Assembly (NCBI GenBank): GCA_001899635.1
Contig: MKVQ01000048.1
Span: forward strand, 496,001 to 560,000
Source: Myxococcales bacterium 68-20
Lineage (GTDB): Bacteria; Myxococcota_A; Polyangia; Polyangiales; Polyangiaceae
Reading direction: 5' to 3'
DNA length: 64,000 nt
Shown: positions 21,823 through 48,768 of the stretch, in pieces
Numbering within the stretch: the stretch's first letter is position 1
Layout of the letters: the number at the start of each line of letters is the position of its first letter
Position numbers and translations under genes: made by a program
Notes under the pieces: generated by a model
The model's input: only the letters and a program-made list of their open reading frames with translations
Told to the model about the DNA's origin: nothing
Database searches by the model: none

Positions 21823-23592
21823 TCACTTCGGGAGAAGCGGTGTGGAGACGAGCGAACGCAGGGACATCCCGCTGGCGTAGGCATAACTGGTCCACCTACC
21901 CCAACCCCAGATCGTTGCAGCGAACAGGCCGTCGCTCCGGAGATGATGCGCGCCGTAGTAGCAAGTCTTTCCATCGGAGGTAACGCCAGGTTCGGAGCCG
22001 ACCGAGAGATCGACGCGCGCGTATTCGTAGGCGCCGCGCGTGCCGATAGGACGAAATGCGGTCACCGGACCGCCGAGGCACTCGAGCGAGACGTCCTTGA
22101 ATTCCCCGTCGGTCTTCGCGCGGATGATCACGAGCGACGTCTCTGCGTACGTCGGGTCGGCGTAGAAACTTGCGTTCGTCAGATACTGCTCGGCGGGAAC
22201 GACGTTGACGAACTCCGGATCTCCCTTCGTTTGCCAACTGCGCCCACTGCCCCAATAGTCACCATTGCTTCCGGTCATGTATGCGGCCAGGTAGATCGGG
22301 TGCTCGGCATCTTGCGAGCGGACGACGAAGGGCTCTCCTACGCCGGCGCCGAACGCCGCGACCTCGCCAGCGTTCAGCGTAAGCGGTGCTCCGCGCGGGA
22401 CCTCCGGATCGTAGTCGAGGCGCGTCCCGTCTCGCGCGGCGAGGATGCGATACGGCATCGGCTCGTGCTCGTCACCGGTGCGTGGACGATAGCCGACTCC
22501 AACGTATTCCGAGCCCCACCGTTCGAACGCGGGTATCTGCGCGCCGAGGATGTCGCACGTACTCACGTTGGCGGGAACGTTGGCGCAGGTGTGCGCGGCG
22601 AAAGTGCTCGTCGGCTTCGTGGAAATGATGGCGCTTCCCGTGAGCTCCTGTGGCTGAACCAACTGCAGAAACTGCCCCTTCTGAAGTCGGTAAGTCGCCG
22701 GCACGCCCGCCGGCGTCCCGACCACGCCGACACCGTCATGAACGTCGGCCTTCGGGTAAATCGTGACGTCGGTATCGTCCTCGGAGGCCACGATCTGGAC
22801 GCCGGGTGAATACGTACGCCACGCCTCCCACGCGTTGACCAGGATGTTCTCCTTCGACCAAGACGCGACCGGGAGTAGGAGCGTCGCCGAAGGAATGGCA
22901 CTTGCCGCACCGCCGAACGGGTAGACCGCCGCCGCGCTCACTGGGGCGCTCGTCTTCAGGTGGAAGGACGAACCGAGCTGAGTCCCATCCGGGTAGTAGT
23001 CGCGGAGGACGGCAGGAACGACCCCCTTCGGGCAAGCGACGTAGCGGGGATTATCAATAGGGGATTCGCGATCGGAGACGAAGAGAATGACGCCGTCCCC
23101 CGGCATGACCGCGCCAACATGCGGGGCCAACTTCGCCTCGCCAGGGAGGGTGCGGTAGATCGCCTTGGAGAGGTCGAGCGCCTTCCCTTCGAACTCGATC
23201 CCGACGTCGACCGGGACGGTGGAGGTGTTGACGAGGTACGTGGCGTAGCAGCTGTACGGCCAATCGTTGTGAGTGGTGAGGAGCGGAGGCTGGAAATAGA
23301 ACTCGCAGCCATTCGTGCTTCCCTCCGTGGCCACGGCGTCGCAGGGCTGCCTGCAGGAGCCCCCACCACATGCGAGCTCGATCGGGCAGGGCTCGATCTC
23401 GCCGCTGCATCGGATGACCGAGCGGCCGTCGAGCGAGCAGCGATCCGCGCAGGTCCCGGCATCGGCGTCGACCTCGCTGAAGATCTCCGGTGGAGGCGCG
23501 AAGGTCTTTCGATCTCCGCCGCATGCGGCCGCGATCAAGATCGCAACTCCGAAGACCGACACGCGGATGCGGCCCGACAATCGCAGGTTCAT
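21823..23592 (-). CDS. Copy A: IgGFc-binding-like lipoprotein
   Basis: This 589-residue protein is the last gene of cassette copy A. It has signal and lipobox VAILIAAAC, then a Cys-rich neck (CADRCSLDGRSVIRCSGEIE and more Cys pairs to about residue 95). A large beta-rich domain follows, similar to the bacterial IgGFc-binding N-terminal family: [58 protein letters not shown]-free repeats with DTDVTIYPKADVHDG, and GQFLQLVQPQELTGSAI. It resembles the protein at 39084-40898 along its whole length. The start ATG overlaps the RCC1 stop by 4 bases. The family is thought to bind glycoproteins or mucin-like ligands; binding is not proven here. Confidence 0.82.
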   Translation of the reverse strand: MNLRLSGRIRVSVFGVAILIAAACGGDRKTFAPPPEIFSEVDADAGTCADRCSLDGRSVIRCSGEIEPCPIELACGGGSCRQPCDAVATEGSTNGCEFYFQPPLLTTHNDWPYSCYATYLVNTSTVPVDVGIEFEGKALDLSKAIYRTLPGEAKLAPHVGAVMPGDGVILFVSDRESPIDNPRYVACPKGVVPAVLRDYYPDGTQLGSSFHLKTSAPVSAAAVYPFGGAASAIPSATLLLPVASWSKENILVNAWEAWRTYSPGVQIVASEDDTDVTIYPKADVHDGVGVVGTPAGVPATYRLQKGQFLQLVQPQELTGSAIISTKPTSTFAAHTCANVPANVSTCDILGAQIPAFERWGSEYVGVGYRPRTGDEHEPMPYRILAARDGTRLDYDPEVPRGAPLTLNAGEVAAFGAGVGEPFVVRSQDAEHPIYLAAYMTGSNGDYWGSGRSWQTKGDPEFVNVVPAEQYLTNASFYADPTYAETSLVIIRAKTDGEFKDVSLECLGGPVTAFRPIGTRGAYEYARVDLSVGSEPGVTSDGKTCYYGAHHLRSDGLFAATIWGWGRWTSYAYASGMSLRSLVSTPLLPK

Positions 23593-24896
23593 GGCAAGCT
23601 CACCTTCACGGGTTCGAGGCTCGACCGTCGCATCTTCTCATCCCCCAATTGCCCATAATAGTTACTGCCGACACAATAAATTTCGCCGCTCGTCAAGAGA
23701 GCGCATGTGGCGTCGCGCGTCGTTCGCACCTGCGCGACGCGGCCCGGCAGTCCGGCAATCTTGACGGGTCGAACGGCATGGTTCTTCGTGCCGTCTCCGG
23801 CTTGACCGGCATTGTTGTCTCCGAGGCAATAGACGCTGCCCGAGATTGCGGCGGCGCACCAGCGCGAAGGCAGGAGGACATTGGGGTAGCGCGACTTATC
23901 GAGAAACGTCGGCGTCGTGGCGATCTGCACGACGGGCTCCGGAGCCGATACCCGTCGAGGGGTAACACCGACGTCATTCCCCCAGCAGAATGAGTCGCCC
24001 TCTGCCGCCACACACGCGCGGCTCTCCACCGCGTCCACTGCGCTGGTGGGCGGCAGGGTCGTGGGCAAGGACACCGGATCGGGGAACAACGACGTCTCGC
24101 GTGCGACCAAGCCGTTGACTCCCCAGCTCTCGGACACTCCATCTTCGCGAACGATGAACGACGCCTCGTTGACGGCCACGTCCCGGATTGGTGCGCCGGG
24201 CCCGAAAGGAACGGCGCGCGGCGGATGCGACGGCTCGCGCATGAAGGGAGCATCCGGGGCCACTTGGCCGAACTCGTTCGATCCCCAGCAAACGACCCCA
24301 TCGTCGACCAACGCACATCCGGTTCGTTGGTACACGCTCACCTTCTTTGCTGGCGGGAGCGCGAGCTTCACGGGCGCTGATTCGGTCGTGACGCCGCCGT
24401 CCCCCTGAAGGAATGGCCCCGTTCCCCAACACCACGCGCCGCCGTTGCGATCGACGGCACACGTGTGGTCGAGCGTTACGATGTCCGAGAGACCGACGAC
24501 ACGCGCGGGGGTCGCGCTACCGGTCGTCGTTTCGCCGCGACCGAGCTCGCCGTTCGCGTTGGCGCCCCAGCACACGACCGTTCCGTCGTGGAGGAGGGCG
24601 CAGAAGCTCTCGCCACGCGAGGAAGCGAGCGATACCGCACATGATGGGGAGTCGCATTCGACCGTGAGAGGCCCTCCGTCGAACGTTCCCGCGTCCGAGG
24701 GAGAACCGTTGGGCGTTCCGTCACTCCCGGCGTCGAGCTGGGACGAAGGCTCCGCGGATGCATCCACAGGAGCTGCTTCAGCCGCGTCGTCACGTGCGCT
24801 GGAGCAGCTCGTGGAAGCCATCACTCCCGCAGTGCATGCAAGTAGCGCGAGCAGCCCGCCCGCATGACGGTCAAGGTGTCGTCTTGTGGAGCGCAT
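23589..24896 (-). CDS. Copy A: RCC1-repeat lipoprotein
   Basis: This 435-residue protein has signal peptide and lipobox (ASTSC), an Asp/Ser/Gly-rich linker, and a propeller built from seven RCC1-like repeats. Clear repeats are CALLHDGTVVCWGANANGEL, CAVDRNGGAWCWG, CALVDDGVVCWGSNEFGQV, CAAAISGSVYCLGDNNAGQA and CALLTSGEIYCVGSNYYGQL; two more are weaker. In each clear repeat a Cys pair brackets the strand, which suggests disulphides outside the cytoplasm. The ATG at 24896 is preceded by GGGAG six bases upstream and lies 26 bases inside the propeller-2 gene. It ends in a 4-base overlap with the IgGFc-like gene. Its counterpart is at 40951-42312. Confidence 0.88.
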   Translation of the reverse strand: MRSTRRHLDRHAGGLLALLACTAGVMASTSCSSARDDAAEAAPVDASAEPSSQLDAGSDGTPNGSPSDAGTFDGGPLTVECDSPSCAVSLASSRGESFCALLHDGTVVCWGANANGELGRGETTTGSATPARVVGLSDIVTLDHTCAVDRNGGAWCWGTGPFLQGDGGVTTESAPVKLALPPAKKVSVYQRTGCALVDDGVVCWGSNEFGQVAPDAPFMREPSHPPRAVPFGPGAPIRDVAVNEASFIVREDGVSESWGVNGLVARETSLFPDPVSLPTTLPPTSAVDAVESRACVAAEGDSFCWGNDVGVTPRRVSAPEPVVQIATTPTFLDKSRYPNVLLPSRWCAAAISGSVYCLGDNNAGQAGDGTKNHAVRPVKIAGLPGRVAQVRTTRDATCALLTSGEIYCVGSNYYGQLGDEKMRRSSLEPVKVSLP

Positions 24897-26178
24897 AGCG
24901 ATCTCCCACTATCCAGATGTTGGTGGCGGACGTCCCGCGAATCCGATTGGCCACAGGCGACGGGACGCCGTTGTGCGCGGTCGACGAGAGTTGATAGGTC
25001 CCGCCGTCGTCCCAGATTCGCGTCCCCCGAGCGGCGATGCCGCGTGCCACGTCGTGGCCTCCGACGAGCCATAGGAGGTCCTCCGACTCGCGCCAGAACG
25101 AGGAGACATAGCTACCTGCCCCCCCCGCCCATACCGCCGGCGGGACGACGGTGTCACGCGCGGAGTAACCTTCGCCATCCGCGATGATTTGCACAGCCGA
25201 CATGCCGACTACATTGCCAAAAAAGACACGACTCCCGCCCAACGACTGAAGGTCCAGTGGCAACTTCACGTTGCCCAAAAAGAGCGGAACGTCCTCGCGC
25301 GCCATGCAATTCGGGGAACGAACAGCGTCCGCGACTCGACGATACCCTTCGCTCGTCTTGCGAATGACGAAGCTACACAACGCGCCGGCCGCAAGCTTGC
25401 CCCTCGATCCGGCAAACCATATGTCGTCACTTTGCGTCCCCGCAATACCAGTAAAGATCAGTTGCTCGTCTGCGTCACCGAAGTCGTCAGCGACGTACTC
25501 CACGACCCATTCGATCTTGCCCTCACTTTGCCTCTCCCCCCGAAAAACAGTATTCGAGTACCAGACGTAGACGTCATCGGCCCCCGTCCCCCAGACGCCG
25601 AGCGCAAGAGCCCTATAAGACTTTGTGATATCGGCCTCGATCGTCTGCGAGTTGTTGTCTTCGAGTCGGGAACTGCTCCACGACCACGCCGTGGCCGGGG
25701 GAACGGGCCTTCTCCCGTGGAAGACGGTTCCGGGCGACACCGTGTAGTAGACCTCCTCGGCGCTCGGCGCCCAGATCCTCGTTGCGAAGTCCGCGAACGC
25801 CTTCTCGTTCTGGCTGTTGTCGTCGATATATCGCCACATCGAATCGACGCTCGTCCATTCGAGGACCTTGACCCCCGCGTTCTTGCTATCAGCGATGGCG
25901 AAGGCGCGGTCCGGAAGCGGCCAGATGTCTCTCAGCACGAGGTCCGTATCGGGCAGTGCCGTCTTGCACCACCCGGCCGCGTTGCATGGAGGGCCGCTGA
26001 GGTCGATGTCCGCGTCGTCGCTTCCGACGACCACGTCTTCCACGGAAGCATCCAAGACCGAAGGCTCCGGCTCCGGCTCCGGCTCGGTGCTCGGGCGGAT
26101 CGGCTCTTCGGACGTGGCGCACGCGGCGATCGCCACGAGACCGATCGCGATACCGCCGCCAATCGCAAGCCGCTTCAT
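24871..26178 (-). CDS. Copy A: WxVG beta-propeller lipoprotein 2
   Basis: This 435-residue protein has signal GIAIGLVAIAAC and a Glu/Pro repeat (PSTEPEPEPEP). A conserved Cys pair follows in GPPCNAAGWCKTALPDTD, then a propeller made of blades of the type (I/V)WxxSxxDVYxV, for example ALGVWGTGADDVYVWYSNTV and GIAGTQSDDIWFAGSRG, ending TSATNIWIVGDRYALHKTTP. The C-terminus and the Cys pair match the gene at 42309-43547. It starts in a 4-base ATGA overlap with propeller 1. No enzyme motif is visible. The base composition looks lower in GC than in copy B. Confidence 0.75.
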   Translation of the reverse strand: MKRLAIGGGIAIGLVAIAACATSEEPIRPSTEPEPEPEPSVLDASVEDVVVGSDDADIDLSGPPCNAAGWCKTALPDTDLVLRDIWPLPDRAFAIADSKNAGVKVLEWTSVDSMWRYIDDNSQNEKAFADFATRIWAPSAEEVYYTVSPGTVFHGRRPVPPATAWSWSSSRLEDNNSQTIEADITKSYRALALGVWGTGADDVYVWYSNTVFRGERQSEGKIEWVVEYVADDFGDADEQLIFTGIAGTQSDDIWFAGSRGKLAAGALCSFVIRKTSEGYRRVADAVRSPNCMAREDVPLFLGNVKLPLDLQSLGGSRVFFGNVVGMSAVQIIADGEGYSARDTVVPPAVWAGGAGSYVSSFWRESEDLLWLVGGHDVARGIAARGTRIWDDGGTYQLSSTAHNGVPSPVANRIRGTSATNIWIVGDRYALHKTTP

Positions 26179-27473
26179 GGCTTTCCTCCGAGCGAAAGGA
26201 CCACCCCTTCGCCACCAATCCAGACGTGTTCCGAGTCCGATGCCCAGACGGTCGTGAGGTTGGGGCGCCGCAAGCCGAGCCCGCCGATCTTCACGCGCGA
26301 CCAGCGGATACCATCGTAGTGAAGGACGACCGCCTCATTGCCGACCGCCCAGATGTCCGAGGCGGAAGTTCCCCATATGGCGTTGAGATGGACCCCTGCA
26401 GGTACGTCCGAGACGACCTCCCAAAGAAGCGGGTCGCCGGTATAGTGCCGCACGGTGCCGTTGAACCCGACCGCCCATACGTCGGACGCGGAGGCTGCCC
26501 ATACCCCATAGAGCGCGTTGCGGGTGCGGCTATTGTAGTGCTTGAACGTCGGGGAAGCGCCGCTGCCGCCGGTCACACGCACGGCGGCGCCGTCCATGCC
26601 GACCGCCCAGAAGTCGTCCGCCGAAACGCCGTGCATGCCCATGAACGAGCCTGCATCGAGCACCTTGACCTCACCAGCGAAGACGCCCGCGTCCGCGACG
26701 CGCACACGAATCAATGCTGGCGGGTTCGGCAGGACCAGAGACGTTTTTCCCGTCGCAAGCCAGAACCAGTCCGAGCCTGGCGAACTCCATCCGAAGGTCA
26801 CCCTTTGAGAGCCCCGCTTGAACGGGCCGGCAGGAACGAGACTCGGCGGAGCGTGCTCGGTCCAGCCGTCAGAGCCGAGACCGCCATCCGGCGGATCGAC
26901 GAGGCCACGCGAGTAGCTTCGGGAGGAGGTCTGAACCCCATTGAAGCCAATCTCGGATGTATCCCGGAGCCACAGAGTCTGAAGTCCAGGCACGAGCCCC
27001 ATCGGCGAGATCTCGCTCGCGGGAAGCTCCGAGCGCACCCACGACGTTCCATCGAAATGGCGCTGCGCACCGAGTCCGCCGAGCACCCAGACGTCGTTCG
27101 CCGACCGACCGCGGATGAGCTGGACAGTCATACGCATGTCGAGGTGATCCGGCCCGCCCGTCGGCTTGTTCGGATCGAATAGCCCGTTGGAGCAGAGGAC
27201 GTCGGCGGAGCAGGCCGGCGGAAAGTACTCGCAATCGGCAGCGCATGGCACCGCAGCATCTCCGTCTGCGGAAGCGTCTGCGCCGGAGTCGCCGACCGAG
27301 GCGATGTTTCGCTCGGGTTCCTCGGAAATTGTCGTTTCGTCGGAGGCGGCGCACGCACCGAGCCCCGAGGAGGCGAACGCTGCGAGCGTTGCCACTGCTG
27401 CGAAGCCGAATCGAAGCCTTTGTCCAAGATCATAAGGGGTGGGCCATCGCCCAATCCCGTTGGAGCGCTTCAC
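26175..27473 (-). CDS. Copy A: WxVG beta-propeller lipoprotein 1
   Basis: This 432-residue protein has lipobox GLGAC, a linker and a Cys-rich neck (CAADCEYFPPACSADVLC), then several blades: GRSANDVWVLGGLGAQRHFD, GVSADDFWAVGMDGAAVRV, GVWAASASDVWAVGFNGTV, AIWGTSASDIWAVGNEAVVL and TVWASDSEHVWIGGEGVVL. The start is the GTG at 27473. It forms a 4-base GTGA overlap with the stop of the Cys-rich gene and has GGAGGAAG just upstream; the longer frame to 27575 is antisense to nothing but overlaps that gene. The counterpart is at 43544-44740. It is probably an envelope-anchored binding protein. Confidence 0.78.
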   Translation of the reverse strand: MKRSNGIGRWPTPYDLGQRLRFGFAAVATLAAFASSGLGACAASDETTISEEPERNIASVGDSGADASADGDAAVPCAADCEYFPPACSADVLCSNGLFDPNKPTGGPDHLDMRMTVQLIRGRSANDVWVLGGLGAQRHFDGTSWVRSELPASEISPMGLVPGLQTLWLRDTSEIGFNGVQTSSRSYSRGLVDPPDGGLGSDGWTEHAPPSLVPAGPFKRGSQRVTFGWSSPGSDWFWLATGKTSLVLPNPPALIRVRVADAGVFAGEVKVLDAGSFMGMHGVSADDFWAVGMDGAAVRVTGGSGASPTFKHYNSRTRNALYGVWAASASDVWAVGFNGTVRHYTGDPLLWEVVSDVPAGVHLNAIWGTSASDIWAVGNEAVVLHYDGIRWSRVKIGGLGLRRPNLTTVWASDSEHVWIGGEGVVLSLGGKP

Positions 27474-28696
27474 CGAGCTTCCTCCTCTTCCTTGCTGCAC
27501 GGTTCTACGACGCAACGACCTCCCGCACACGCCTGGCCAGCCGCGATGTCGCAAGTAACGCCACATCCGCCGCAATTCAGCGGGTCGCTGAAGATGTCCA
27601 CCTCGCAGTCATCGTCGACATTGCCGTTGCAGTCGGCCCATCGGGCACCGCATTCGCGCTTGCACACACCGTACTCGCAGCTTCCTCGACTACGCTCGGT
27701 GGCCTCCGGGCATACTCGTCCGCAGCCGCCACAGTTGTAGGGGTCCGAGGTGAAGTCGGCGCAAACGCCCCACGGCGGCTCGACGGCGTACATTGCGCAA
27801 AAGGTCTGTCCCGGCGGACAGACGCACCTAGGAGTCAAAGCCAAACCGCTGCCGAGATCGACGCCACAGACCATTTTTTTGGCGGGGCAGTTGTCATCGC
27901 ATGCAGTGCAATTTTCGTTGGTGCCGAGCGAGACTTCACACCCATCGGAGTTCGGCTTGTTCAGATCGCCGTTGCAGTCGGCGTGACCTTTTTCGCACTT
28001 TAGCCAATTGCATTGCCCCAGAATGCAGCCGTAGTACGCGTTCGGCGGGGGGGGCGGGGACCCGGGGGCGCCAGCCCGATCGCAGACGTTCCCGCATCCA
28101 CCACAGTGCGCGGAACTGAACTCGACATCAAAACAGGCCTGGTCCCCGGCCTTCGCTGGCTTACAGTACGTGTACGGAGTTGGACAACCACATTCCGGCG
28201 TCCCCGTATCCATCAGGCATGGGGCCGTCTCCGGGTCGGCACACGTCTTACCGCAGGCACCGCAATTTTCGTTGGTCTTCAGGGATGTCTCGCAACCGTT
28301 ATCGACGATCCCGTCGCAATCGGCGACGAAGTTGCGTTCGGTGCATCGGAGGACGCACTGGCCCTCGACGCAATCGTATCGTTCGTCGCCGCGCTCGCCG
28401 GGGCAGGTCACGCCGCACGCGCCGCAGTTGTTACGGTCCGACCTCAAGTCCGCATCACAAAGGAACTTCGAACCCGGGCACGTCGTAAATCCCGTCGGGC
28501 ACTTGTTCGACGGGCAGTATTCGGTGAGCTCGCGGATGGAAGCCTCCACGGACGCATCAGGCGGCGACACGAAGGACGGCGGCGGCGCGCTGATCTCGCC
28601 GACGACGACATCATCCGAAATCGTGCCGCTGCAGGCGATGACGAGGATTCCACCGCAGACAGCGATCGTGACGCCACTGGAGAGTCTCGAGCTCAT
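27470..28696 (-). CDS. Copy A: Cys-rich NCGxCG-repeat lipoprotein
   Basis: This 408-residue protein has signal and lipobox VIAC. It carries six repeats of the form NCGACGxxC (DRNNCGACGVTC, TNENCGACGKTC, SAHCGGCGNVC, NENCTACDDNC, YNCGGCGRVC, LNCGGCGVTC). These alternate with three segments of the type DCNGxxxxxGCEVxL. The many paired Cys residues suggest a rigid, disulphide-linked rod outside the cytoplasm. The start ATG at 28696 overlaps the anti-sigma stop by 4 bases; the frame upstream to 28900 is not used. Similar myxobacterial proteins are often misnamed 'tryptophan synthase alpha chain', for which there is no support. The counterpart is at 44737-45987. Confidence 0.8.
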   Translation of the reverse strand: MSSRLSSGVTIAVCGGILVIACSGTISDDVVVGEISAPPPSFVSPPDASVEASIRELTEYCPSNKCPTGFTTCPGSKFLCDADLRSDRNNCGACGVTCPGERGDERYDCVEGQCVLRCTERNFVADCDGIVDNGCETSLKTNENCGACGKTCADPETAPCLMDTGTPECGCPTPYTYCKPAKAGDQACFDVEFSSAHCGGCGNVCDRAGAPGSPPPPPNAYYGCILGQCNWLKCEKGHADCNGDLNKPNSDGCEVSLGTNENCTACDDNCPAKKMVCGVDLGSGLALTPRCVCPPGQTFCAMYAVEPPWGVCADFTSDPYNCGGCGRVCPEATERSRGSCEYGVCKRECGARWADCNGNVDDDCEVDIFSDPLNCGGCGVTCDIAAGQACAGGRCVVEPCSKEEEEAR

Positions 28697-40898: not shown

Positions 40899-40950
40899 GA
40901 CTTTGGACTCCACGATGTTCAATCGACGTAGCGGCTCGGACTTGGGACGA

Positions 40951-42312
40951 TCAGCGGAAGGTCACGATCGCCGGGGTTGGATGCGGATCCGTATCGAGAC
41001 TGCCCTGTCCGAGCTGTCCGTATTCGTTACCTCCCCAGCACTGCACGGAGCCGTCCTCGAGAAGGGCGCACGTCGAGGAGTCGGTCGTCACGACCTGCAC
41101 CGCGTGTCCGGTGAACTTCTCCGCTCGACGCAGCGCGAAGACGCGCTCGCGATCCGTCGGCGGGTCGATGCCGAGCTGCCCCCACTTGGCCTCGCCGGCG
41201 CACTGGATCGACCCATCCGTCAGGCGAATGCACGTCGTACGACGTGACACCGACAGCTGCTGCGCATACGCGCTGGTCATCATCACGGCGTGTGCAGGAA
41301 GGGTCGCGTTGCTGGGAAGCCCCGTACCGAGGGCGCCGTAGGCTCCGGAGCCCCAGCAGTAGACGCTACCGTTCGCGATCGCGCACGTGTGCGCCGCGCC
41401 GACGGAGACGTCGCTCACGCCGGCGAGCGATGGGATCACCGCTGGCACCGGATCCGGATTGAGCGATCCGTAGCGGCCCGCAAGCGTGCCCCACGAGAGG
41501 AGCGTGCCGGTGTCCGTGATGGCGTACGTCGAGACCTCCGAGGAGCCGGCGCGAACGACAGCGAAGCCCACGAGATCGGCGCGCCCAGGTCCGAGCACGG
41601 CGTCGGTCGCCGGGCGGGCGAGCTGGCGGCGCAGGTTCCCGCCCCAGCACGAGAGCCCTCCGGTCTTCAGGACGGCGCATGCGCTTCGCTGGCCGAGGTC
41701 GACCCGAACGGCCGAGTCCCCGCCGAGCGCGACGGGCGTCGCGTACGCGTGCACATCCCGATCCGACTGCGGGCGCTCGGCTTCGAGCCCGAGCTGTCCG
41801 TAGTCGTTCGAGCCCCAGCAGTACACCGAGCCGTCGCCGCGCGTGGCGCAGGTCGCGTTCGCGGCGGCGCTGATCTGGCGAACGTCGGTGAGATCCGTCA
41901 CGACGGCGGGGCGGGGCGATTCGCTCGGGGCCCGTTCGCCGCCATCCCCCGGCGGCGCGCCGTTGCCGATGGCGCCGTAGTCGTTCGTCCCCCAGCACTG
42001 CACCGTCGCGTCCGACATGCGCGCGCAGAAGTGGTTGTATCCAGCCGCCAGCTGGAGGACGCACGGCTCGACCGCGCACTTCACCGGTACGTTCGACGGG
42101 TCGAAGGGCGGCGCGGCGTCGCCGCCGTCGACTGCATCCGGGGGCGAAGCATCCGGCGTGTCTTCGGGAGGAGTGACGGAGCCCGAGTCGCTCTCCGTGA
42201 ACACGGGGCGCGCTTCGTCGTCACCGCACGCGCAGAAAGCGACGACCGCAACGCACGAGAGCGCGGGAGCGAGGAGAGCACGGGGACGGTCCAGCACACG
42301 ATGCTGCTTCAT
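40951..42312 (-). CDS. Copy B: RCC1-repeat lipoprotein
   Basis: This 453-residue protein has a signal ending FCAC, a Pro/Asp-rich linker and seven RCC1-like repeats. These include CARMSDATVQCWGTNDYGAI, CATRGDGSVYCWGSNDYGQL, CAVLKTGGLSCWGGNLRRQL, CAIANGSVYCWGSGAYGAL, CIRLTDGSIQCAGEAKWGQL and CALLEDGSVQCWGGNEYGQL. The strand-flanking Cys pairs match copy A. The start overlaps the propeller-2 stop by 4 bases. Seven repeats suit a closed seven-blade propeller on the cell surface; the binding partner is unknown. Confidence 0.88.
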   Translation of the reverse strand: MKQHRVLDRPRALLAPALSCVAVVAFCACGDDEARPVFTESDSGSVTPPEDTPDASPPDAVDGGDAAPPFDPSNVPVKCAVEPCVLQLAAGYNHFCARMSDATVQCWGTNDYGAIGNGAPPGDGGERAPSESPRPAVVTDLTDVRQISAAANATCATRGDGSVYCWGSNDYGQLGLEAERPQSDRDVHAYATPVALGGDSAVRVDLGQRSACAVLKTGGLSCWGGNLRRQLARPATDAVLGPGRADLVGFAVVRAGSSEVSTYAITDTGTLLSWGTLAGRYGSLNPDPVPAVIPSLAGVSDVSVGAAHTCAIANGSVYCWGSGAYGALGTGLPSNATLPAHAVMMTSAYAQQLSVSRRTTCIRLTDGSIQCAGEAKWGQLGIDPPTDRERVFALRRAEKFTGHAVQVVTTDSSTCALLEDGSVQCWGGNEYGQLGQGSLDTDPHPTPAIVTFR

Positions 42313-43547
42313 GGATTCACTCCGGACGTCTTCCGAAGGACTGTTCCGTCACCGACGATCCAGAATTCCTTCTTGTTCGGTGCGCCCCAGATGGCGTTGA
42401 GGTTCTTCACGAAGGGGAACTTGTCGACGGTGACGCGCGATGGGGACCACTTCGTTCCGTCGAAGTGACGGATGCGCCCGCGGTCGCCCACGAGCCAGAT
42501 GTCGCTTTTCGAGGTGCCGTAGATGCCGCGCACGGAGGAACCGAACTCCTCGCCGCCCCAGACGACCGCTCCGGCATCGCCGTCGGGCGGATGGATCGCG
42601 CCGGACCAGACGTTGCCCTGATTCCACCAGTTGTTGCCCGCGATGAACGTCTCCGGGACGTGAATCGCTCCGACGACCTCGAGCAGGCTCATGCTTCCGA
42701 AGCCCGTGTGGACCTCCACGCGCTCGAAGCTCGTTCCGCCGTTTCCGTCGCCGCGTCCGTGATAGACGCGTGCACCTTGAGGGGTCGCAGCGATCCCGGT
42801 GGCCGCGAGCCACATGTCGTCGGGCCTCGATCCCCAGACGGTCGTGAACGCGACCCCCTCGCTCTCCATCGGATCGTGCTGGAAGTCGTTCGTCGGATCG
42901 CCCGTCGGCCCGCGGTAGCGGAGCACGAGCCCCGCTTCCCCCTCCCAGCCCGAGACGCCGCCCACGAACCAGACGTCGTTCGGACCGAAGCCGTGGATCG
43001 ACCTGACCGGAACGGTCGGCACGTACGAGATTGCGGTGAACGTCACCGACGCCGGCGTCGCGCCCTGGCCGTGGAAGATCCCCGACTCACCACCGATCCA
43101 GATGTCGGTCGGTCCGCTGCCCCAGATGGTGGAGAGCGGGCTCGGCACGTTTGCGTGAACGATGAACGCGGTGCCGTCCCAGCGCAGGACATCGCCCTTG
43201 TCGCTGACCACCCAGACGGTGCCCGCGCCGTCGCCCCACACGGCTCGGAGCGAGTCCGAAACGGGCACCGGCAGGTGGCAGAGCCCGTCGGGGCTGCACA
43301 GAACCGACGCGTCCGCATCGGCCCCAGCGTCCTCGGCCGCGTCGTCGAGGCCGCCGTCGGCGGGCTCTTCGCTCGCATCGACCTCCGGAAGCGGGTTGCC
43401 TCCGTCGATCTCGGGCTCGGGCTCGAACGAGCCCAGTGTGTCGTCTTCGCTGCAGGCGCTCATCGAGGCGAGCGCGGCGGCTCCCAGCACGAGAGCGAAG
43501 AGCGATGCGAGCGACGGAAGAGATCGAAAGGGGGTGATGCCTCTCAT
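42309..43547 (-). CDS. Copy B: WxVG beta-propeller lipoprotein 2
   Basis: This 412-residue protein has lipobox MSAC and an acidic linker. A Cys pair follows in LCSPDGLCHLPVPVSD, aligned with the copy A pair, then blades SLRAVWGDGAGTVWVVSDKG, TIWGSGPTDIWIGGESG, SIHGFGPNDVWFVGG, GIYGTSKSDIWLVGDRGRIR and AIWGAPNKKEFWIVGDGTVL. It ends RKTSGVNP, compared with HKTTP in copy A. ATGA overlaps at both ends join it to propeller 1 and the RCC1 gene. Confidence 0.8.
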   Translation of the reverse strand: MRGITPFRSLPSLASLFALVLGAAALASMSACSEDDTLGSFEPEPEIDGGNPLPEVDASEEPADGGLDDAAEDAGADADASVLCSPDGLCHLPVPVSDSLRAVWGDGAGTVWVVSDKGDVLRWDGTAFIVHANVPSPLSTIWGSGPTDIWIGGESGIFHGQGATPASVTFTAISYVPTVPVRSIHGFGPNDVWFVGGVSGWEGEAGLVLRYRGPTGDPTNDFQHDPMESEGVAFTTVWGSRPDDMWLAATGIAATPQGARVYHGRGDGNGGTSFERVEVHTGFGSMSLLEVVGAIHVPETFIAGNNWWNQGNVWSGAIHPPDGDAGAVVWGGEEFGSSVRGIYGTSKSDIWLVGDRGRIRHFDGTKWSPSRVTVDKFPFVKNLNAIWGAPNKKEFWIVGDGTVLRKTSGVNP

Positions 43548-44740
43548 GGCGTTTCGACTCCCGAGTTTCGGTGGAGGACGACGCTGTCGCCCACGATCCA
43601 GACGTCATCGGCGGAGCTCCCCCAGACCCCGCGAAGGTTCGGCGGGAAGCTCCCCACGCCGAACTTGGCAGAGACGGACTCGAAGGTAGTGCCGTCGTAG
43701 TGGAGGATGGTTCCGTTGTCGCCGACGACCCAGATGTCCTTTGCGCCGGTTCCCCAGACGGCGCGGAGATTTTCGGTCGTGGGCACGTCGACGATCGCCC
43801 AACGCTTCGGGGTCGCGTTCGTCCAGTGACGAACGGTGCCACGATTTCCCACGGCCCAGACGTCACCGGAGCTCGAGCCCCAGATGGCATTCAGGTCGTA
43901 CGGCGATTGGGTATCGTACTCGACCCAGTCGACCGCACCGGGTCCGGGCACCGCGTGAATGGCACGCCCGTAGCGCGTGGTCGCGGCCGTCGACATCCCA
44001 CCGACTGCCCAGATGCCGTCGGGACCGCCGGACCAGAACCCACGCACGAGGAAGTTCGTACCGGCGAGAGACTGATCCCAGGACGTCGCGCCGGCGCCCC
44101 AGCGCCAGAGGTTCCTGTTGGCCGCCCGCGTCTCGCCGGGAGGAACGAGCTGGTAGGTCGAACCTCCGAGCCAGACGCCGCCCTCCGGAGGGACCCATGC
44201 CGCGAGGAGCAGCGCCTCCTGCTGGACGTAGCCGTTGGGCTCGTAGGCCGCGCCTACGGGCTCGAACTTCTCCCAGGTCGACGCGCCCGCGAAGCCCATC
44301 GAGTGGAACAGGACGGCCCGCGAGCTCACGGCCCACACCTCACCGGACGGACGCCCCGCGACGGCGAAGATCGTCTGCCGTGTGTTCGTCGGCGTCTCGA
44401 CCCACGCCTTACCGTCGAAGTGCATGAGCGCTCCGAACGATCCTCCGACCCAGACATCGTCTGCGCGAGAGCCCCACACGCTCGTGAACGACGGTCGCGT
44501 GTTGGGGATCGAGACCGGGCAGAACGCGACGCCGGAGGCAGCGCAGTCCTCCTCCACGGGAGGAGGCGCACAGCCGTCCATCCCTGCTTCGCAGCCGGCA
44601 TCGCCCGGAGGGGCAGGGATCGTCGACGAGTCGGGATCGTCGCTCGCTAGCCGGCCGTCGGACGCGGTGTCCGCGCAGCTTGGCATGAACCACGCGAGAC
44701 CAAGAGCGACAGGCAAGTAGCGCATCATCGGAGCCCTCAT
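43544..44740 (-). CDS. Copy B: WxVG beta-propeller lipoprotein 1
   Basis: This 398-residue protein has signal and lipobox-like FMPSC, a linker with several Cys (CEAGMDGCAPPPVEEDC) and propeller blades: SVWGSRADDVWVGGSFGALM, GFWSGGPDGIWAVGG, AIWGSSSGDVWAVGNRGTVR, AVWGTGAKDIWVVGDNGTIL and GVWGSSADDVWIVGDSVVL. The start is the ATG at 44740, which forms a 4-base overlap with the Cys-rich stop; the frame to 44821 is read only as overlap. It is the counterpart of 26175-27473, with the same neck-plus-propeller layout. Confidence 0.8.
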   Translation of the reverse strand: MRAPMMRYLPVALGLAWFMPSCADTASDGRLASDDPDSSTIPAPPGDAGCEAGMDGCAPPPVEEDCAASGVAFCPVSIPNTRPSFTSVWGSRADDVWVGGSFGALMHFDGKAWVETPTNTRQTIFAVAGRPSGEVWAVSSRAVLFHSMGFAGASTWEKFEPVGAAYEPNGYVQQEALLLAAWVPPEGGVWLGGSTYQLVPPGETRAANRNLWRWGAGATSWDQSLAGTNFLVRGFWSGGPDGIWAVGGMSTAATTRYGRAIHAVPGPGAVDWVEYDTQSPYDLNAIWGSSSGDVWAVGNRGTVRHWTNATPKRWAIVDVPTTENLRAVWGTGAKDIWVVGDNGTILHYDGTTFESVSAKFGVGSFPPNLRGVWGSSADDVWIVGDSVVLHRNSGVETP

Positions 44741-45987
44741 CGCGTCACCGGCTCCCCGCCGTCGCATTCGGCCATCAGGCAGCGCCCCTCGACGCACGGC
44801 TGCCCGAGCGCGCTGTTGCAACGATTCCCGCAGGCGCCGCAGTTCGCACCGTCGTACGAGACGTTCGTCTCACAGCCGTCGGCCGGGTTCCCGTTGCAGT
44901 CGGCCCACCCCGGCTCGCATTCGGTACCGCAGATGCCGCTCACGCACGTCGCGATCTGGTGGGCGCCGCGCAGGTCGACGAACGGACACGCGTGATTGCA
45001 GAGGCCGCAGTGCTTCGGGTCGGTCGAGATGTCGACGCACTCGTTGCCTGGCGTCTGGCAGCGAGTCTCGTTCGCGCGGCAACCGCAGACGACGTCGCCC
45101 TTCGTGAGGCGCATGCACTCGACGCCGGGAGCGCACTTCTTGTCGCAGGCCCCGCAGTGCTCCGGGTCGATGAGGCCGTCGCCGATGTCACGCTCGACGA
45201 TGACCTCGCAGCCATCACCCTGCGGGTCCCGGATGTCGCCGTTGCAGTCGGCGAATCCCTGGACGCACTTGAGCTCGTTGCACTTGCCGAACACACACCC
45301 CATGTCCGTATTGGGAGGCAGCTCCGGCGGCGGGAACTGGGGCCTGCAGACTCGTCGGCACGCGCCGCAGTTGAAGTCGTCGGAATCGGTGTAAGTGCAA
45401 TAGCCGCCGCAATCGGTCATCCCCGGAGGGCACCCGCAAACGCCATTGATGCAGCCGACGCCGTCCGGGCAGGCGTTGCCGCACTGACCGCAGTTGTTGC
45501 GATCGGTCAGGACGGAGGCTTCGCAACCGTCGTCCGGGAGCCCGTTGCAGTCGCGACGAGTCTCATCGCACTGGGGCTCGCAACGGCCTTGGTAGCAGAC
45601 TCCCTTGACGCCGAACTCGTAGAACTCTTCGCACGCGTGCCCGCACGCACCGCAATTGTTGTTGTCGGTGAGGAGGTTGTGCTGACACTTGAACGGCGGG
45701 CGCGCGGTCGGGTTCGGCGAATCGCACGTCGCAAACGGCGCCGGGCACTCGGTTGCGAGGCACATCAGCGGCTCGGGCTCGATCGCGTCGCCGCCCGCGT
45801 CCTCCACCGGAGCAAGCGGGGGCGGCACCGCGGCGTCGATCTCGGGCGTCGCAAGGACGACCGGCTCGTCGAGCCCCGCGCACGCGGCCGTCAGGCCGGC
45901 AACGGACGCCGTCGAGAGGACGAACGCAACGATGCGACGCCGGTATTCGGTCGAACGACCGGTGACAGTTCGAATGTCGTTGTTCAT
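44737..45987 (-). CDS. Copy B: Cys-rich NCGxCG-repeat lipoprotein
   Basis: This 416-residue protein has lipobox GLTAAC and six repeats: NNCGACGHAC, NNCGQCGNAC, FNCGACRRVC, EHCGACDKKC, KHCGLCNHAC and ANCGACGNRC. It also has three DCNGxxxDGCE-type segments (DCNGLPDDGCEASV, DCNGDIRDPQGDGCEVIV, DCNGNPADGCETNV). The number and order of both repeat types are the same as in copy A. It starts 32 bases after the anti-sigma stop, whereas copy A has a 4-base overlap there. Likely a disulphide-rich extracellular rod. Confidence 0.8.
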   Translation of the reverse strand: MNNDIRTVTGRSTEYRRRIVAFVLSTASVAGLTAACAGLDEPVVLATPEIDAAVPPPLAPVEDAGGDAIEPEPLMCLATECPAPFATCDSPNPTARPPFKCQHNLLTDNNNCGACGHACEEFYEFGVKGVCYQGRCEPQCDETRRDCNGLPDDGCEASVLTDRNNCGQCGNACPDGVGCINGVCGCPPGMTDCGGYCTYTDSDDFNCGACRRVCRPQFPPPELPPNTDMGCVFGKCNELKCVQGFADCNGDIRDPQGDGCEVIVERDIGDGLIDPEHCGACDKKCAPGVECMRLTKGDVVCGCRANETRCQTPGNECVDISTDPKHCGLCNHACPFVDLRGAHQIATCVSGICGTECEPGWADCNGNPADGCETNVSYDGANCGACGNRCNSALGQPCVEGRCLMAECDGGEPVTR

Positions 45988-46019: not shown

Positions 46020-46730
46020 TTACTGCGACCTGTCGAGCACCGAGCGCACGCGGCCGGCGTACGGGCTCGTCGGGTACTGCGAAAGGAACTGGCGCCCCGC
46101 GGCTCCCGCCGCGGTGCTCTTTCCGGCGGCCGCGAGCGCTTCGACACGCATCGCTGCGACCTCCTGCACGAACGCACCATCACGGTGCGCTTTGCCGTAG
46201 GCGTCGATCGATTGAAGACACGCGTCGGCTTCGCCTCGTGAGAGCTCCCTGCGAATGCGCTCGACGAGAGCGAGCTCGTCGCGGAAGGAGTCGACCGCCG
46301 GCGCCTTCTCCATGCCGGTCGCCGACGGAGCCGCGAGCGGCTTCGGCTTCGCTGGCGCGACGGGAGCCGGGGGAAGATCCTCGACCCTCACCGACATCGC
46401 GGGCGGCTCGATGACGGGTGCTTCATCTGCGACGACGACCAGAGGGGCCTCACTGCGGGCCGGCGGCGCCACACGTGCGCTCGAGGCCGCGCCGTCGTCG
46501 CGGCTCCATTCGTAACCCGCGCTCGTCAACGCGAGCACCGTCACACCGAGGCCGACCCAGGCCCACGTGCGGCGAATGGGGCGAGGCGCGAGCGGGGACA
46601 CCGCGGCGCCGGCGGCCAGAGTCGAAAGGGTCTTGTCGATCGAGCTGCGCTGGGGCTCCCCGCCCTTCAGCGCCAAGACGAGGCGCGCGAACTCCGGATC
46701 GACGTCCCTCAGACGCTCACCGCGCTTCAT
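46020..46730 (-). CDS. Copy B: one-TM anti-sigma-like protein with TPR-like tail
   Basis: This 236-residue protein has a cytoplasmic N-terminus (MKRGERLRDVDPEFARLVLA), a membrane segment at about 55-74 (WAWVGLGVTVLALTSAGYEW), an Ala/Pro linker and a helical tail. The tail has RDELALVERIRRELSRGEA, ACLQSIDAYGKAHRDG and YPTSPYAGRVRSVLDR. The tail matches copy A closely, whereas the N-terminus differs more. This is what one would expect if each copy binds its own sigma factor but senses the same kind of signal. ATGA overlap with the sigma gene. Confidence 0.7.
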   Translation of the reverse strand: MKRGERLRDVDPEFARLVLALKGGEPQRSSIDKTLSTLAAGAAVSPLAPRPIRRTWAWVGLGVTVLALTSAGYEWSRDDGAASSARVAPPARSEAPLVVVADEAPVIEPPAMSVRVEDLPPAPVAPAKPKPLAAPSATGMEKAPAVDSFRDELALVERIRRELSRGEADACLQSIDAYGKAHRDGAFVQEVAAMRVEALAAAGKSTAAGAAGRQFLSQYPTSPYAGRVRSVLDRSQ

Positions 46731-47323
46731 CGGCCACCTCGCAAACTGTTGCGGTGACGCTCGAAGCGCGTTTGGAACTCCTCCCGCGCCCGACGCAGCC
46801 GGGAGGCGACGGTGCCGACCGGTAGCTCGGTGAGATCCGCGACCTGCTGCATCGTCAATCCTTCGATCTCGAAGAGCACGAACACCTGCCTTTGCCCCTC
46901 ATCGAGCTCGTCGAGCAGACGGAGCGCGAGCTCGCGAGCTTGCTTGTCGTCGAGCTCCTGTTCCGGGGTGGGGGACGTATCGACTCTCGCTTCCACGACC
47001 GAGTCGTCATCGAGAGGGGCCTCGCGGACGAACTTTCTCCGCGCGGCCTGCGCGACCTTGAACGCAGTCGCGAAGAGGTATGAGCGCTCACTGCCAGGTT
47101 GAATCCGGTCGAATCGGCGTGCCGCAACGACGAAGACGTCCTGCACCGCGTCGTCCACCCAGCGCTCCGGCACCCCCAGGTGACGGAGAAACCGCCAGAC
47201 GTCACCGAAATACGTCTCGACGAGCCGCCTTACTGCCGCATGATGCGCATGCCGGCTCACGGCGCCGTCGTCCTCGTCGGACGGCCCCTTCGCACGCGAC
47301 ACAGCGTGTGGCAGCGCAGACAT
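46727..47323 (-). CDS. Copy B: ECF-type RNA polymerase sigma factor
   Basis: This 198-residue ECF sigma factor has region 2 with VDDAVQDVFVVAARRFDRIQ and SYLFATAFKVAQAARRKFV, and region 4 with RQVFVLFEIEGLTMQQVADL plus GTVASRLRRAREEFQTRFER. It is like the copy A sigma over its full length, with the same order SYLF-VA-RR and the shared end REEFQxRxERHR. The ATG at 47323 is preceded by an AT-rich patch. It probably controls its own cassette; cross-talk with copy A is possible given the similarity. Confidence 0.9.
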   Translation of the reverse strand: MSALPHAVSRAKGPSDEDDGAVSRHAHHAAVRRLVETYFGDVWRFLRHLGVPERWVDDAVQDVFVVAARRFDRIQPGSERSYLFATAFKVAQAARRKFVREAPLDDDSVVEARVDTSPTPEQELDDKQARELALRLLDELDEGQRQVFVLFEIEGLTMQQVADLTELPVGTVASRLRRAREEFQTRFERHRNSLRGGR

Positions 47324-47574: not shown

Positions 47575-48768
47575 TCAGAAACGCACGCCTCCCACGAGCC
47601 CGAGCGTGACGCCGACGTTCGGGGCCAGCGAGACGAGCGTTCCCGTCGAGAGCTTGAAGCGGTTTCGGCTGATCGGCAGGACCATGGATGCCGCACCCCC
47701 GACGAACCACCCGCCGGCGATCGACCAGGTGACCCGGGCGGAGATGCCCGCGTCGATCCAGGTCTTCGCCGTACGTCGCGCATCCGAGCTGCCACTCGCA
47801 TTCGCGCGAAGGACTCCGAGATCGCTCTCCACACACGGCATGATCTCGAGGCGACCGTTCGCGCTCACGAATCGAGCCGGGCACAGCCGAAGGACGGTGG
47901 CGGTCCAGAGAAACTCGGTCGTCACGGTCGAGCGCTCGATGCTGCGAGGCAGGCTCTGCCTCACACCGAGCGCGAGCGAGGGGCGCAACCAGCGCGGGCG
48001 AACGGAGCGGTCGTGACCGCTAAGGACGAACGGCTCCACCTCGAACGCCGCCGACACGACCGGCAGGCCCCCTGACACGACGGCCGAGGTGAGCTCCGCC
48101 CTCGCGTCGACCGCGAAGGCCACGCCCCGCTCCGTCGGCTTGCTCGGTGGCGGTGGCGGACGCGGCGTCTCGGGTTGCTTGGGTGGAGGTGGAGGTGGAG
48201 GTGGAGGCGGCGGAGGCAGTGGCTCGGCCACGGGTCCGGGCTCGCTGCGCTGCTCCGGGAAGAAGGCCGACGGATCGATCGCCACCGCCACCGCGATCAC
48301 CATCCCTCTCGCCACGGCCTCGCAGTCCGGGCCCATGATGGTGCGCGACGCGTTCGCGTCCACCGCATCGGAGTCCGGTTGCGACACCTCCAGCGTGCCG
48401 GCGACGCGCCCGTCGCGAGGTTCGAGCTTCAGCCGGAAGTGCCGCGCCTTGTCGCCGTCGGCAGCGAGCGTCCAGCGCGAGGTGTACTCCCGGACCTTCT
48501 CGATGAACTCGTCGTAGCTCGGGCAGCTCGGAGCGGCCTCGTAGTGGATCCGGATGCGCTCGCGCTCGCCCTGCGGCTCGCGCTCCTGGCCGAACGCCTG
48601 CGATGGCAGCACGATCAGCGGCAGCCCGACGACGAGGCCGCCCCATGTTCGCGCACCTCGGACCGACCACCGGCGAGAAGGTGGCCGCCGCTCCGACCGT
48701 GCACCTGCATCGCCCCGTGCCGGGCGGATCGCCGGGCTCGTCGATCTGGGGCTGTTCCAGGTCCTCAC
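47575..48768 (-). CDS. Copy B: secreted protein with predicted beta-rich C-terminal region
   Basis: This 397-residue protein has a long basic N-region and then a signal-like LVVGLPLIVLPSQAFGQ. A domain with SCPSYDEFIEKVREYTS and GPDCEAVARGMVIAVAVAID follows, then a poly-Pro stretch (about 12 Pro in a row). The C-terminal half has alternating strands and ends LGLVGGVRF. The SCPS and GPDC motifs and the final Phe match copy A. The start is a GTG at 48768; no other start codon is in frame before the signal. An 8-bp inverted repeat spans this start (48764-48793). It follows the phosphatidyltransferase gene by 74 bases. Confidence 0.65.
   Translation of the reverse strand: MRTWNSPRSTSPAIRPARGDAGARSERRPPSRRWSVRGARTWGGLVVGLPLIVLPSQAFGQEREPQGERERIRIHYEAAPSCPSYDEFIEKVREYTSRWTLAADGDKARHFRLKLEPRDGRVAGTLEVSQPDSDAVDANASRTIMGPDCEAVARGMVIAVAVAIDPSAFFPEQRSEPGPVAEPLPPPPPPPPPPPPKQPETPRPPPPPSKPTERGVAFAVDARAELTSAVVSGGLPVVSAAFEVEPFVLSGHDRSVRPRWLRPSLALGVRQSLPRSIERSTVTTEFLWTATVLRLCPARFVSANGRLEIMPCVESDLGVLRANASGSSDARRTAKTWIDAGISARVTWSIAGGWFVGGAASMVLPISRNRFKLSTGTLVSLAPNVGVTLGLVGGVRF

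Follow-up and report, generated by a model that had tools for sequence, protein, structure and literature searches.

Bacteroidota Sus-type polysaccharide utilisation loci (PULs) carry pairs of extracytoplasmic function (ECF) sigma factors and anti-sigma factors. In Fec/Fpv-type signalling, as outlined in an excerpt of PMC11637429, a TonB-dependent transducer, an anti-sigma factor and an ECF sigma factor act across the cell envelope. A 64,000 nt stretch of the genome of Myxococcales bacterium 68-20 (GCA_001899635.1, contig MKVQ01000048.1, positions 496,001 to 560,000; hereafter the window, in whose own coordinates positions are given) carries two copies of an eight-gene cassette that shares features with both kinds of system and belongs to neither. 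Its genes are named, in the order of transcription, SCP, SIG, AS, CYS, PRP, PRP, RCC and IGG; SCP, SIG and AS make up the head, and CYS, the two PRP genes, RCC and IGG the body. We consider it likely that these cassettes belong to a genus-restricted, massively amplified operon family built of two interchangeable modules, the head being a trans-envelope switch and the body an exchangeable surface set, and that some 120 surface complexes, each wired differently, are encoded in this genome, which is related to Labilithrix sp. ACE_MYX5 and ACE_MYX7.

The two window cassettes

The genes of the two cassettes, copy A (L120) and copy B (L121), and one candidate promoter element are as follows:

21823..23592, minus strand: copy A IGG (body gene 5), predicted lipoprotein with an IgGFc_binding domain (PF17517, E 2e-99)
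23589..24896, minus strand: copy A RCC (body gene 4), predicted lipoprotein with RCC1 repeats (PF13540/PF00415)
24871..26178, minus strand: copy A distal PRP (A3, body gene 3), predicted lipoprotein with WxVG repeats (family hidden Markov model, HMM; without a Pfam match)
26175..27575, minus strand: copy A proximal PRP (A4, body gene 2), WxVG repeats (family HMM; no Pfam match over cut-off)
27470..28900, minus strand: copy A CYS (A5, body gene 1), predicted Cys-rich lipoprotein (NF041328, E 2e-17, under cut-off)
28693..29457, minus strand: copy A AS (head gene 3), putative anti-sigma factor with one transmembrane (TM) helix and a periplasmic tetratricopeptide repeat (TPR) tail (after the AlphaFold model of the copy B protein)
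29454..30038, minus strand: copy A SIG (head gene 2), ECF sigma factor (TIGR02937 over cut-off, PF08281, PF04542)
30080..31156, minus strand: copy A SCP (head gene 1), predicted periplasmic alpha/beta domain, linker and OmpA-like outer-membrane barrel (AlphaFold, NspA/OmpA matches)
31167..31172, minus strand: candidate -10 element TAGNNT upstream of copy A SCP (the L120 site; motif statistics)
39084..40922, minus strand: copy B IGG, IgGFc_binding-domain protein (PF17517, E 1e-100)
40951..42312, minus strand: copy B RCC, RCC1-repeat protein (Pfam)
42309..43547, minus strand: copy B distal PRP (B3), WxVG repeats (family HMM)
43544..44821, minus strand: copy B proximal PRP (B4), WxVG repeats, start probably internal (PSII_BNR, E 2e-4, under cut-off)
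44737..45987, minus strand: copy B CYS, predicted Cys-rich lipoprotein (NF041328 and STIG1-like PF04885, both over cut-off)
46020..46730, minus strand: copy B AS, putative one-TM/TPR anti-sigma factor (AlphaFold TPR; TPR proteins BamD and YbgF as best Foldseek rows)
46727..47323, minus strand: copy B SIG, ECF sigma factor (TIGR02937 over cut-off)
47575..48768, minus strand: copy B SCP (B8), predicted outer-membrane barrel protein, start probably near 48663 (alignment with copy A)

As the initial annotation had it, each block holds eight genes in identical order, and both blocks are on the minus strand. Seven of the eight pairs are clear in blastp: IGG (40% identity, E 6e-120), CYS (36%, E 2e-50), RCC (29%, E 4e-35), SIG (48%, E 8e-27), the proximal PRP pair A4/B4 (30%, E 4e-24), AS (47% over 89 aa, E 8e-20) and SCP (29%, E 8e-20). 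The distal PRP genes A3 and B3 are paired by position, with a marginal blastp match (E 0.02), and A3 is closer to B4 (E 4e-5). These alignments exclude that the two copies are unrelated beyond low-complexity repeats. The six NCGxCG repeats described for CYS are present in a looser form, the exact motif occurring four times in copy A and three times in copy B and the remaining repeats being degenerate. SIG and AS overlap by 4 bp in both copies. The annotated open reading frame starts of A4, A5, B4 and B8 are probably too long, the true starts being internal; a candidate internal start of copy A CYS is MSSRLSSGV...

Pfam supports IgGFc_binding in IGG (PF17517, 333 and 337 bits against a cut-off of 25.6), RCC1 in RCC and sigma-70 r2/r4 in SIG of both copies. 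SIG has the layout of an ECF sigma factor, with PF04542 and PF08281/PF04545 in about 195 aa and no match to region 3. CYS scores 114.7 bits (copy B) and 63.3 bits (copy A) against NF041328 (C_rich_MXAN6577, cut-off 100 bits). No family over cut-off was found for SCP, AS or PRP in Pfam, or in NCBIfam for the genes scanned, and among the WxVG proteins only B4 gave a weak Pfam match (PSII_BNR), below cut-off.

The anatomy of the cassette fits a relay of signals from the outer membrane to a sigma factor. As in Fec-type systems, the predicted parts are a barrel with an N-terminal periplasmic domain, a single-pass inner-membrane regulator with a periplasmic domain and an ECF sigma factor encoded beside the regulator (TIGR02937 over cut-off in both copies), and they are encoded beside the genes that they probably control. 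The differences lie in the barrel, which is like the small OmpA/NspA barrels whereas that of Fec is a TonB receptor with a plug; in the periplasmic part of AS, which is predicted to be TPR and not FecR-like; and in the output, a set of five predicted lipoproteins in about 120 copies. Pfam found no TonB-dependent receptor with a plug among the 16 window proteins, SCP being without a Pfam or NCBIfam match, and no FecR domain in the window AS proteins, where the predicted periplasmic TPR takes its place. With Sus-type loci the family shares the presence of many paralogous surface-lipoprotein operons per genome, each probably under cognate regulation, but the cassettes are without SusC, SusD and hydrolase (Pfam found no SusC/SusD pair among the 16 window proteins), and their heads and bodies are re-paired at a fixed joint. 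The cassette is not a member of the Fec type or the Sus type, since the defining receptor was not found in it; the best reading, by analogy, is that it would work in the manner of cell-surface signalling, with regulated display at the surface coupled to it.

The bodies could instead be PUL-like lipoproteins for nutrient capture, each induced by its substrate, which would make the family a feeding repertoire and not one for adhesion or recognition. Multi-copy families of surface lipoproteins with ECF/anti-sigma pairs do recall the SusC/SusD loci of Bacteroidota, but neither window copy holds an enzyme, a TonB-dependent receptor or a SusD domain by Pfam, and the sole candidate for a channel is the small OmpA-like barrel. 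We regard a feeding repertoire as unlikely.

Amplification across the genome

An alignment search with IGG gave at least 143 matches in the genome (best 150 of 193 candidates scored). The 132 best IGG places (lowest 173 bits) were followed up as regions of about 13.5 kb each and annotated with iterated family HMMs. Multi-gene cassettes were found at 128 of them, on 36 contigs, so that the presence of the cassette "twice" was a large undercount. The exact order SCP-SIG-AS-CYS-PRP-PRP-RCC-IGG occurs in 89 of the 132 places; besides these canonical cassettes there are 32 others with SIG, seven without SIG in line with the body and four with IGG alone. SIG is present in 121 places and the complete five-gene body also in 121, and SIG and AS are adjacent 119 times across the 132 regions. 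Cassette genes are packed or overlapping, and the summed cassette spans come to 1,179,016 bases, or 9.91% of the genome. Six cassettes consist of a body alone; in one of these (L110) the head is adjacent but inverted, and another (L084) is cut by a contig end. An excerpt of PMC3696898 gives 109 sigma factors for Sorangium cellulosum So0157-2, a similarly large number, whereas here 121 ECF genes belong to one operon type alone and have the same neighbour genes.

Searches with SCP and AS gave at least 140 and 144 matches (150 candidates scored for each), a few of which are fragments of one gene. Of the 144 AS matches, 124 have an IGG less than 9 kb away, so that most heads of this genome serve a body; among the other 20, several are weak or near contig ends.

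The assembly is a draft (11,892,454 bases in 52 contigs) with an estimated contamination of 4.2%, and an artefact of assembly or binning might have inflated or scrambled the family. The copies, spread over 36 contigs, are however too different to be collapsed or misjoined repeats, an exact 100-mer being shared in one cassette pair and an exact 150-mer in none, and the same cassettes are present in further assemblies, of which two are named. Such an artefact is extremely improbable.

Several loci depart from the usual layout. A divergent cassette (L023/L024; G000:C9:50950-66209) has two tandem IGG genes, with no PRP or RCC found between head and IGG, and is possibly an early or reduced form. 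At L110, L141, L191 and L211 the head is inverted relative to the body (SCP-SIG-AS divergent from CYS); thus the modules can be physically rearranged too. L141 and L191 look like one ACE_MYX5 locus. RCC1-repeat proteins are extremely numerous in the genome, with matches for all 150 candidates scored out of 811 first-look candidates, and several of the contigs listed are free of cassettes.

Head and body have largely separate histories

Correlation and tree tests were run on the 89 canonical cassettes of the 132 places, leaving out the other 43. Spearman correlations (rho) between identity matrices were 0.34–0.42 within the head (SCP, SIG, AS) and 0.72–0.84 within the body (CYS, PRP, PRP, RCC, IGG), and ranged from −0.05 to 0.07 between head and body genes. 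None of 500 permutations reached the five within-module values tested, while 16 to 448 of 500 reached the five between-module values. The nearest neighbour of SIG is also that of SCP in 42 of 89 cassettes and that of AS in 40, but that of IGG in two; the nearest neighbour of IGG is common to CYS, PRP or RCC in 52–58 of 89.

Trees were built with FastTree from concatenated protein alignments, and splits with support of 0.95 or more were compared. The head tree has 48 such splits and the body tree 58, of which a single one is shared (L091 with L121), while 47 head and 57 body splits are in conflict. Control trees within modules agree: for the head, SCP+AS (40 splits) and SIG (27) share 20, with 5 and 3 in conflict, and for the body, CYS+PRP+PRP (49) and RCC+IGG (49) share 37, with 1 and 2 in conflict. 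The conflict between head and body, together with the agreement of the within-module controls, indicates that this genome re-pairs heads and bodies.

The window cassettes illustrate this. Copy B is closest to L091 in all eight genes, whereas copy A is closest to L037/L076 in its head genes and to L044/L109 in its body genes. Among 88 cassettes the two copies rank 2–3 to each other in SIG and 47–51 in IGG. They therefore have fairly related heads and distant bodies, and are not each other's nearest relatives; rather than a cassette duplicated 7.9 kb apart, as was first proposed, they are two of about 128 dispersed copies.

Whole cassettes might have been duplicated without any re-pairing, the regulatory genes diverging faster than the body. 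L091 and L121 are indeed a plain whole-cassette pair, a weak residual association between head and body remains, and the same own cassette is the best match for head and body in 16 of 29 sister loci with a head gene. Faster divergence of the head would however leave head and body trees congruent, which a single shared split against 47 and 57 in conflict does not show. Where IGG identity exceeds 0.7 (46 pairs), mean SIG identity is 0.321 compared with 0.320 overall, with SIG under 0.5 in 44 of the 46; the head of L093 is closest to L060 (SIG 0.73) and its body to L046 (IGG 0.89); and the window copies have fairly close heads with distant bodies. Saturation of the head signal is argued against by the agreement between the SIG and SCP+AS trees. 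Duplication of whole cassettes by itself is an improbable account.

The joint between the modules

At the DNA level, 21 cassette pairs were compared whose bodies are close (IGG over 0.78) but whose heads differ (SIG under 0.45). The similarity begins within CYS, in most pairs either in the linker that follows the lipobox or where the mature domain has its first Cys (further in for L014/L054). It ends at the IGG stop codon: the offset is between −23 and +4 nt for 18 of the 21 pairs and 39, 86 and 994 nt for the others, with a median of 0. L046 and L093, for example, are 85–91% identical in DNA from CYS to IGG and have no blastn match over SCP, SIG and AS. The CYS signal peptide goes with the head: its similarity score is 0.285 where heads are alike, compared with 0.097 where bodies are alike and an overall mean of 0.093, although its overall rho with SIG is 0.115. 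The CYS linker is of mixed affiliation, and the mature domain follows the body (rho 0.73–0.76 with other body genes, −0.05 to 0.05 with head genes). The module joint is in or near the CYS linker, and the IGG stop codon is the 3′ edge of the body. Loss of constraint might account for part of the sharpness of these edges, although flanks free of constraint would still be expected to align when DNA identity is about 90%. In one ACE_MYX7 cassette (L209) an extra RCC1 gene (4740–6122) is found at the head-body joint, with AS on one side and CYS on the other.

Predicted structures, export signals and a candidate promoter

The AlphaFold model of copy A SCP (predicted local distance difference test score, pLDDT, 79.8, from 15 sequences) consists of an alpha/beta domain (residues 34–131), a disordered linker and a barrel (187–357). 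The barrel matches NspA (Foldseek E 3.6e-6; VIA Z 17.6 over 150 residues at 2.8 Å) and also OmpA, with VIA Z of 16–17.6 and 117–166 residues aligned; its best matches are 8-strand barrels. SCP ends in ...RF, with an aromatic C-terminal residue, in both window copies. On this model the C-terminal part of SCP is an OmpA-like small outer-membrane barrel, which was missed when the gene was first read as a secreted protein with a beta-rich end.

AS is a predicted membrane protein encoded beside the sigma factor in both window copies. The model of copy B AS (pLDDT 71.4, from 14 sequences) has a hydrophobic helix at residues 58–74, taken as TM, a low-confidence linker and a TPR domain at 145–235, with pLDDT of 95–98 from residue 151; its best Foldseek rows are BamD and YbgF, at E 0.006 or worse.

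Lipobox-like signals, detected across the cassettes by a crude pattern, are frequent in the body (CYS 58/128, PRP 190/257, RCC 100/127, IGG 113/132) and less so in the head (SCP 12/107, AS 1/120). The lipobox Cys is invariant among 89 aligned CYS proteins. Ratios of nonsynonymous to synonymous substitution (dN/dS) of body genes are 0.22–0.61 in seven pairs, and by this measure the body genes are under constraint.

In 31 of 107 cases the hexamer TAGNNT precedes a possible SCP start by 8–22 nt, compared with 4/121 before SIG, 0/120 before AS, 1/128 before CYS, 0/124 before RCC and 4/132 before IGG; with eleven other triplets in place of TAG, 2–20 sites were found before SCP. Enrichment of dyads and k-mers in the upstream regions of the individual genes gave no clear −35/−10 motif, the top words being coding-like. 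A motif obtained by expectation maximisation was rejected as a promoter, as it drifted to codon-like words that are common before other genes too. The sigma-controlled surface or outer-membrane lipoprotein assembly proposed in the initial annotation fits the lipobox-like signals, the barrel model, the model of a TM helix with a periplasmic TPR and the candidate −10 element; the two recombining modules, and the congener sites without the cassette pair described below, had been overlooked.

Congeners, the occupied site and distribution

Cassettes are carried by Labilithrix sp. ACE_MYX5 (G003), with 35 IGG matches at E 1e-100 or better (22 inspected), and ACE_MYX7 (G006), with 11 (10 inspected); whole or partial cassettes were seen too in the congeners G009, G011 and G004. 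Copy numbers within this one genus range from 0 upward. Two genes flank the occupied site in the window:

20222..21733, plus strand: left flank gene (ACE_MYX7 match 51 bp from the right-flank match)
48843..49613, minus strand: right flank gene, CDP-alcohol phosphatidyltransferase (PF01066)

On contig C136 of ACE_MYX7, window 20121–21721 matches 49532–51129 and window 48849–49600 matches 48729–49480, in the same orientation and 51 bp apart, and further C136 matches are collinear on both sides. The gap between the two flank matches is 567 bp on contig C6 of congener G005, and on contig C123 of ACE_MYX5 the right flank gene is 1.8 kb from the match to window 17040–19173. As the flank matches adjoin in congeners, 27 kb was either inserted here or lost in several congeners. 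The genes between the window cassettes (31.2–39.1 kb) match other contigs of G003, G005 and G006. This segment (31975–39029) encodes a ferredoxin reductase-like protein, an aldo/keto reductase, an EamA transporter and a PBP transpeptidase and, with its congener matches on separate contigs, looks like a mosaic. Near the insertion site, window 18245–20068 encodes a chitosanase-like protein (GH75, PF07335).

Of 36 sister-genome regions compared with own cassettes, 29 hold a head gene and include the 16 loci with one best match for both modules mentioned above. In 14 of the loci SIG reaches 70% identity to an own SIG; of these, 11 agree in head and body, L197 clearly disagrees, its head being like L020 and its body like L045 at 80–90%, and L207 and L209 are near ties. 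Head and body also disagree at two named loci. In the second cassette of L136 the head is like L094 (76–81%) and the body like L046/L047/L093; that of L158 has a head like L100, and a body whose own matches are only distant, none of them L100. At 14236–16070 of L136, from ACE_MYX5, the L094-like head follows a broken-looking end of an L093-type IGG, as L094 follows L093 in the own genome, a possible trace of local body replacement.

Flank synteny was compared for 13 sister and own cassettes matched by head, and for L197 with L045, matched by body, mostly over about 1–4 kb (L204 downstream only, L136 upstream only). In 12 of the 13 head-matched comparisons the flanks show no homology, or none beyond 130 bp before SCP; the second cassette of L136 and L094 share 583 bp at 87% before SCP, from the 3′ end of the IGG of the preceding cassette, so that here the context has been preserved. 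Within the genome, the bodies of 24 cassette pairs less than 20 kb apart are more similar than random (0 of 2000 permutations for each of the five genes), while SCP and SIG are not (473 and 291 of 2000) and AS is in between (21 of 2000). With neighbouring bodies alike and SCP and SIG not, the pattern resembles local copying of bodies between adjacent slots.

The cassettes might be mainly selfish, a mobile or recombining element that amplifies while its products are of little import. The cassette-free site in congeners, the missing flank homology in 12 of 13 comparisons and copy numbers from 0 upward within the genus would suit such an element. The window cassettes, however, were found to be without a recombinase domain (Pfam) or terminal repeats, no shared repeat marking cassette ends in window 21500–49200. 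Across the family no strong end motif was found, and TTTT, as a terminator signal, occurs within 60 nt after the IGG stop in five of 128 cases. The constraint on body genes also speaks against it, and as no exact 150-mer is common to any two cassettes, the copies are not recent. A mainly selfish element therefore has little probability.

Beyond the genus the parts occur separately. Among 58 genomes, own included, IGG was found at E 1e-30 in at least 29 and AS at E 1e-8 in at least 51, with at most 22 (IGG) and 42 (AS) candidates scored per genome; among 108 genomes of the family, 12 have IGG at E 1e-150, six of them in this genus, own included. All of 18 regions placed on AS matches in other genera hold SCP, SIG and AS (SCP divergent in L164), while the family HMMs found neither CYS nor IGG there. 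Two further regions are from congener G005, one with a head and one, not placed on a match, empty. CYS and IGG belong to or near the MXAN_6577-like and PF17517 families, but elsewhere PF17517 genes differ in standing without the operon: this holds for 12 of 26 named IGG loci (Sorangium, Nannocystis, Enhygromyxa and uncultured lineages), the other 14, from Labilithrix sp., having the cassette or parts of it. L215–L217 likewise have IGG without the operon, and in L218 a CYS-like gene follows IGG. It was thus half true that the eight families rarely co-occur: all eight together were seen in this genus only, but on their own the IgGFc gene and the head triad have a wider occurrence than the whole cassette. 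From this separate occurrence, it appears that a more widespread sensory head was joined with a separate IgGFc family in this genus. Ten proteins downstream of cassette-less heads (at nine of 19 such loci, one in a congener) gave no common family. At four of the 18 other-genus loci (L160, L168, L173 and L176) the head triad is directly followed by a very Cys-rich protein (28–61 Cys) missed by the CYS HMM; a protein of this kind may have been the first cargo of the head.

Proposed mechanism

Copy number, order, module histories, joint position, predicted folds, the candidate promoter element and the cassette-free congener site were computed, and the following scheme is built on them. The head module, comprising the promoter, SCP, SIG, AS and the CYS signal peptide, would be a trans-envelope transcription switch. 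The OmpA-like barrel of SCP would meet a signal at the cell surface, and its N-terminal periplasmic domain would relay this to the periplasmic TPR domain of AS in the inner membrane. AS, acting as an anti-sigma factor, would then let go of the ECF sigma factor, and SIG would transcribe its own operon from the TAGNNT-type promoter upstream of SCP. The body module, from mature CYS to IGG, would supply five outer-membrane lipoproteins that are inherited together, may bind a ligand and probably act jointly in recognition or adhesion at the cell surface. Recombination would re-pair bodies with heads at the fixed joint, and cassettes would arrive at new genomic sites.

A number of points weigh against this scheme, besides the draft state of the assembly. 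For the switch, the N-terminus of AS is poorly modelled (pLDDT 41–73 up to residue 140), and Pfam at its cut-offs recognised no anti-sigma domain in AS of either window copy. TAGNNT, a motif chosen after viewing alignments upstream of matching SCP genes, was found in only 31 of 107 SCP upstream regions; copy B is without a site in the site list, and no common −35 element emerged upstream of cassette genes. Complex formation by the body proteins is something we infer only from their co-inheritance. Head and body are also not fully independent. Mean IGG identity is 0.509 in the 54 pairs whose SIG exceeds 0.55, compared with 0.458 overall; nearest neighbours agree across modules in 2–6 of 89 cassettes compared with about one by chance; the SIG-CYS rho of 0.066 was reached by just 16 of 500 permutations; and top-five neighbour overlap across modules is 0.35–0.56, compared with 0.28 by chance and 2.6–3.3 within modules. 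Where SIG is 70% or more identical in sister loci, head and body agree in 11 of 14. Because head-body pairs are mostly kept across species, re-pairing is slow, which counts against frequent switching.

Biological significance

Searches of the open-access PMC library, outside which most subscription papers lie, gave no paper recognisable as a description of the operon. The signalling logic is known, and the more than 100-fold, head-body-shuffled arrangement was not met in these searches. The family may be a combinatorial library in which over 100 orthogonal barrel/TPR/ECF switches and a pool of five-protein payloads evolve apart and are re-paired at one joint, an idea that we put forward tentatively; if true, the lineage could rewire which surface complex answers which signal while both parts stay unchanged.

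About 10% of a large bacterial genome is given to one unnamed operon type. If the modular reading holds, the genome offers a natural collection of about 120 ECF/anti-sigma pairs that evolved together in one cell. It would then bring two questions within reach of testing: what number of sigma/anti-sigma/promoter sets a single cytoplasm can keep insulated from one another, and how evolution re-attaches regulatory inputs to outputs. The cassettes also suggest a form of trans-envelope signalling in which a small OmpA-like barrel and a TPR protein replace the TonB receptor and FecR. For these Myxococcota, they would amount to an extensive repertoire of regulated surface proteins, for which recognition, adhesion or predation is a candidate role.

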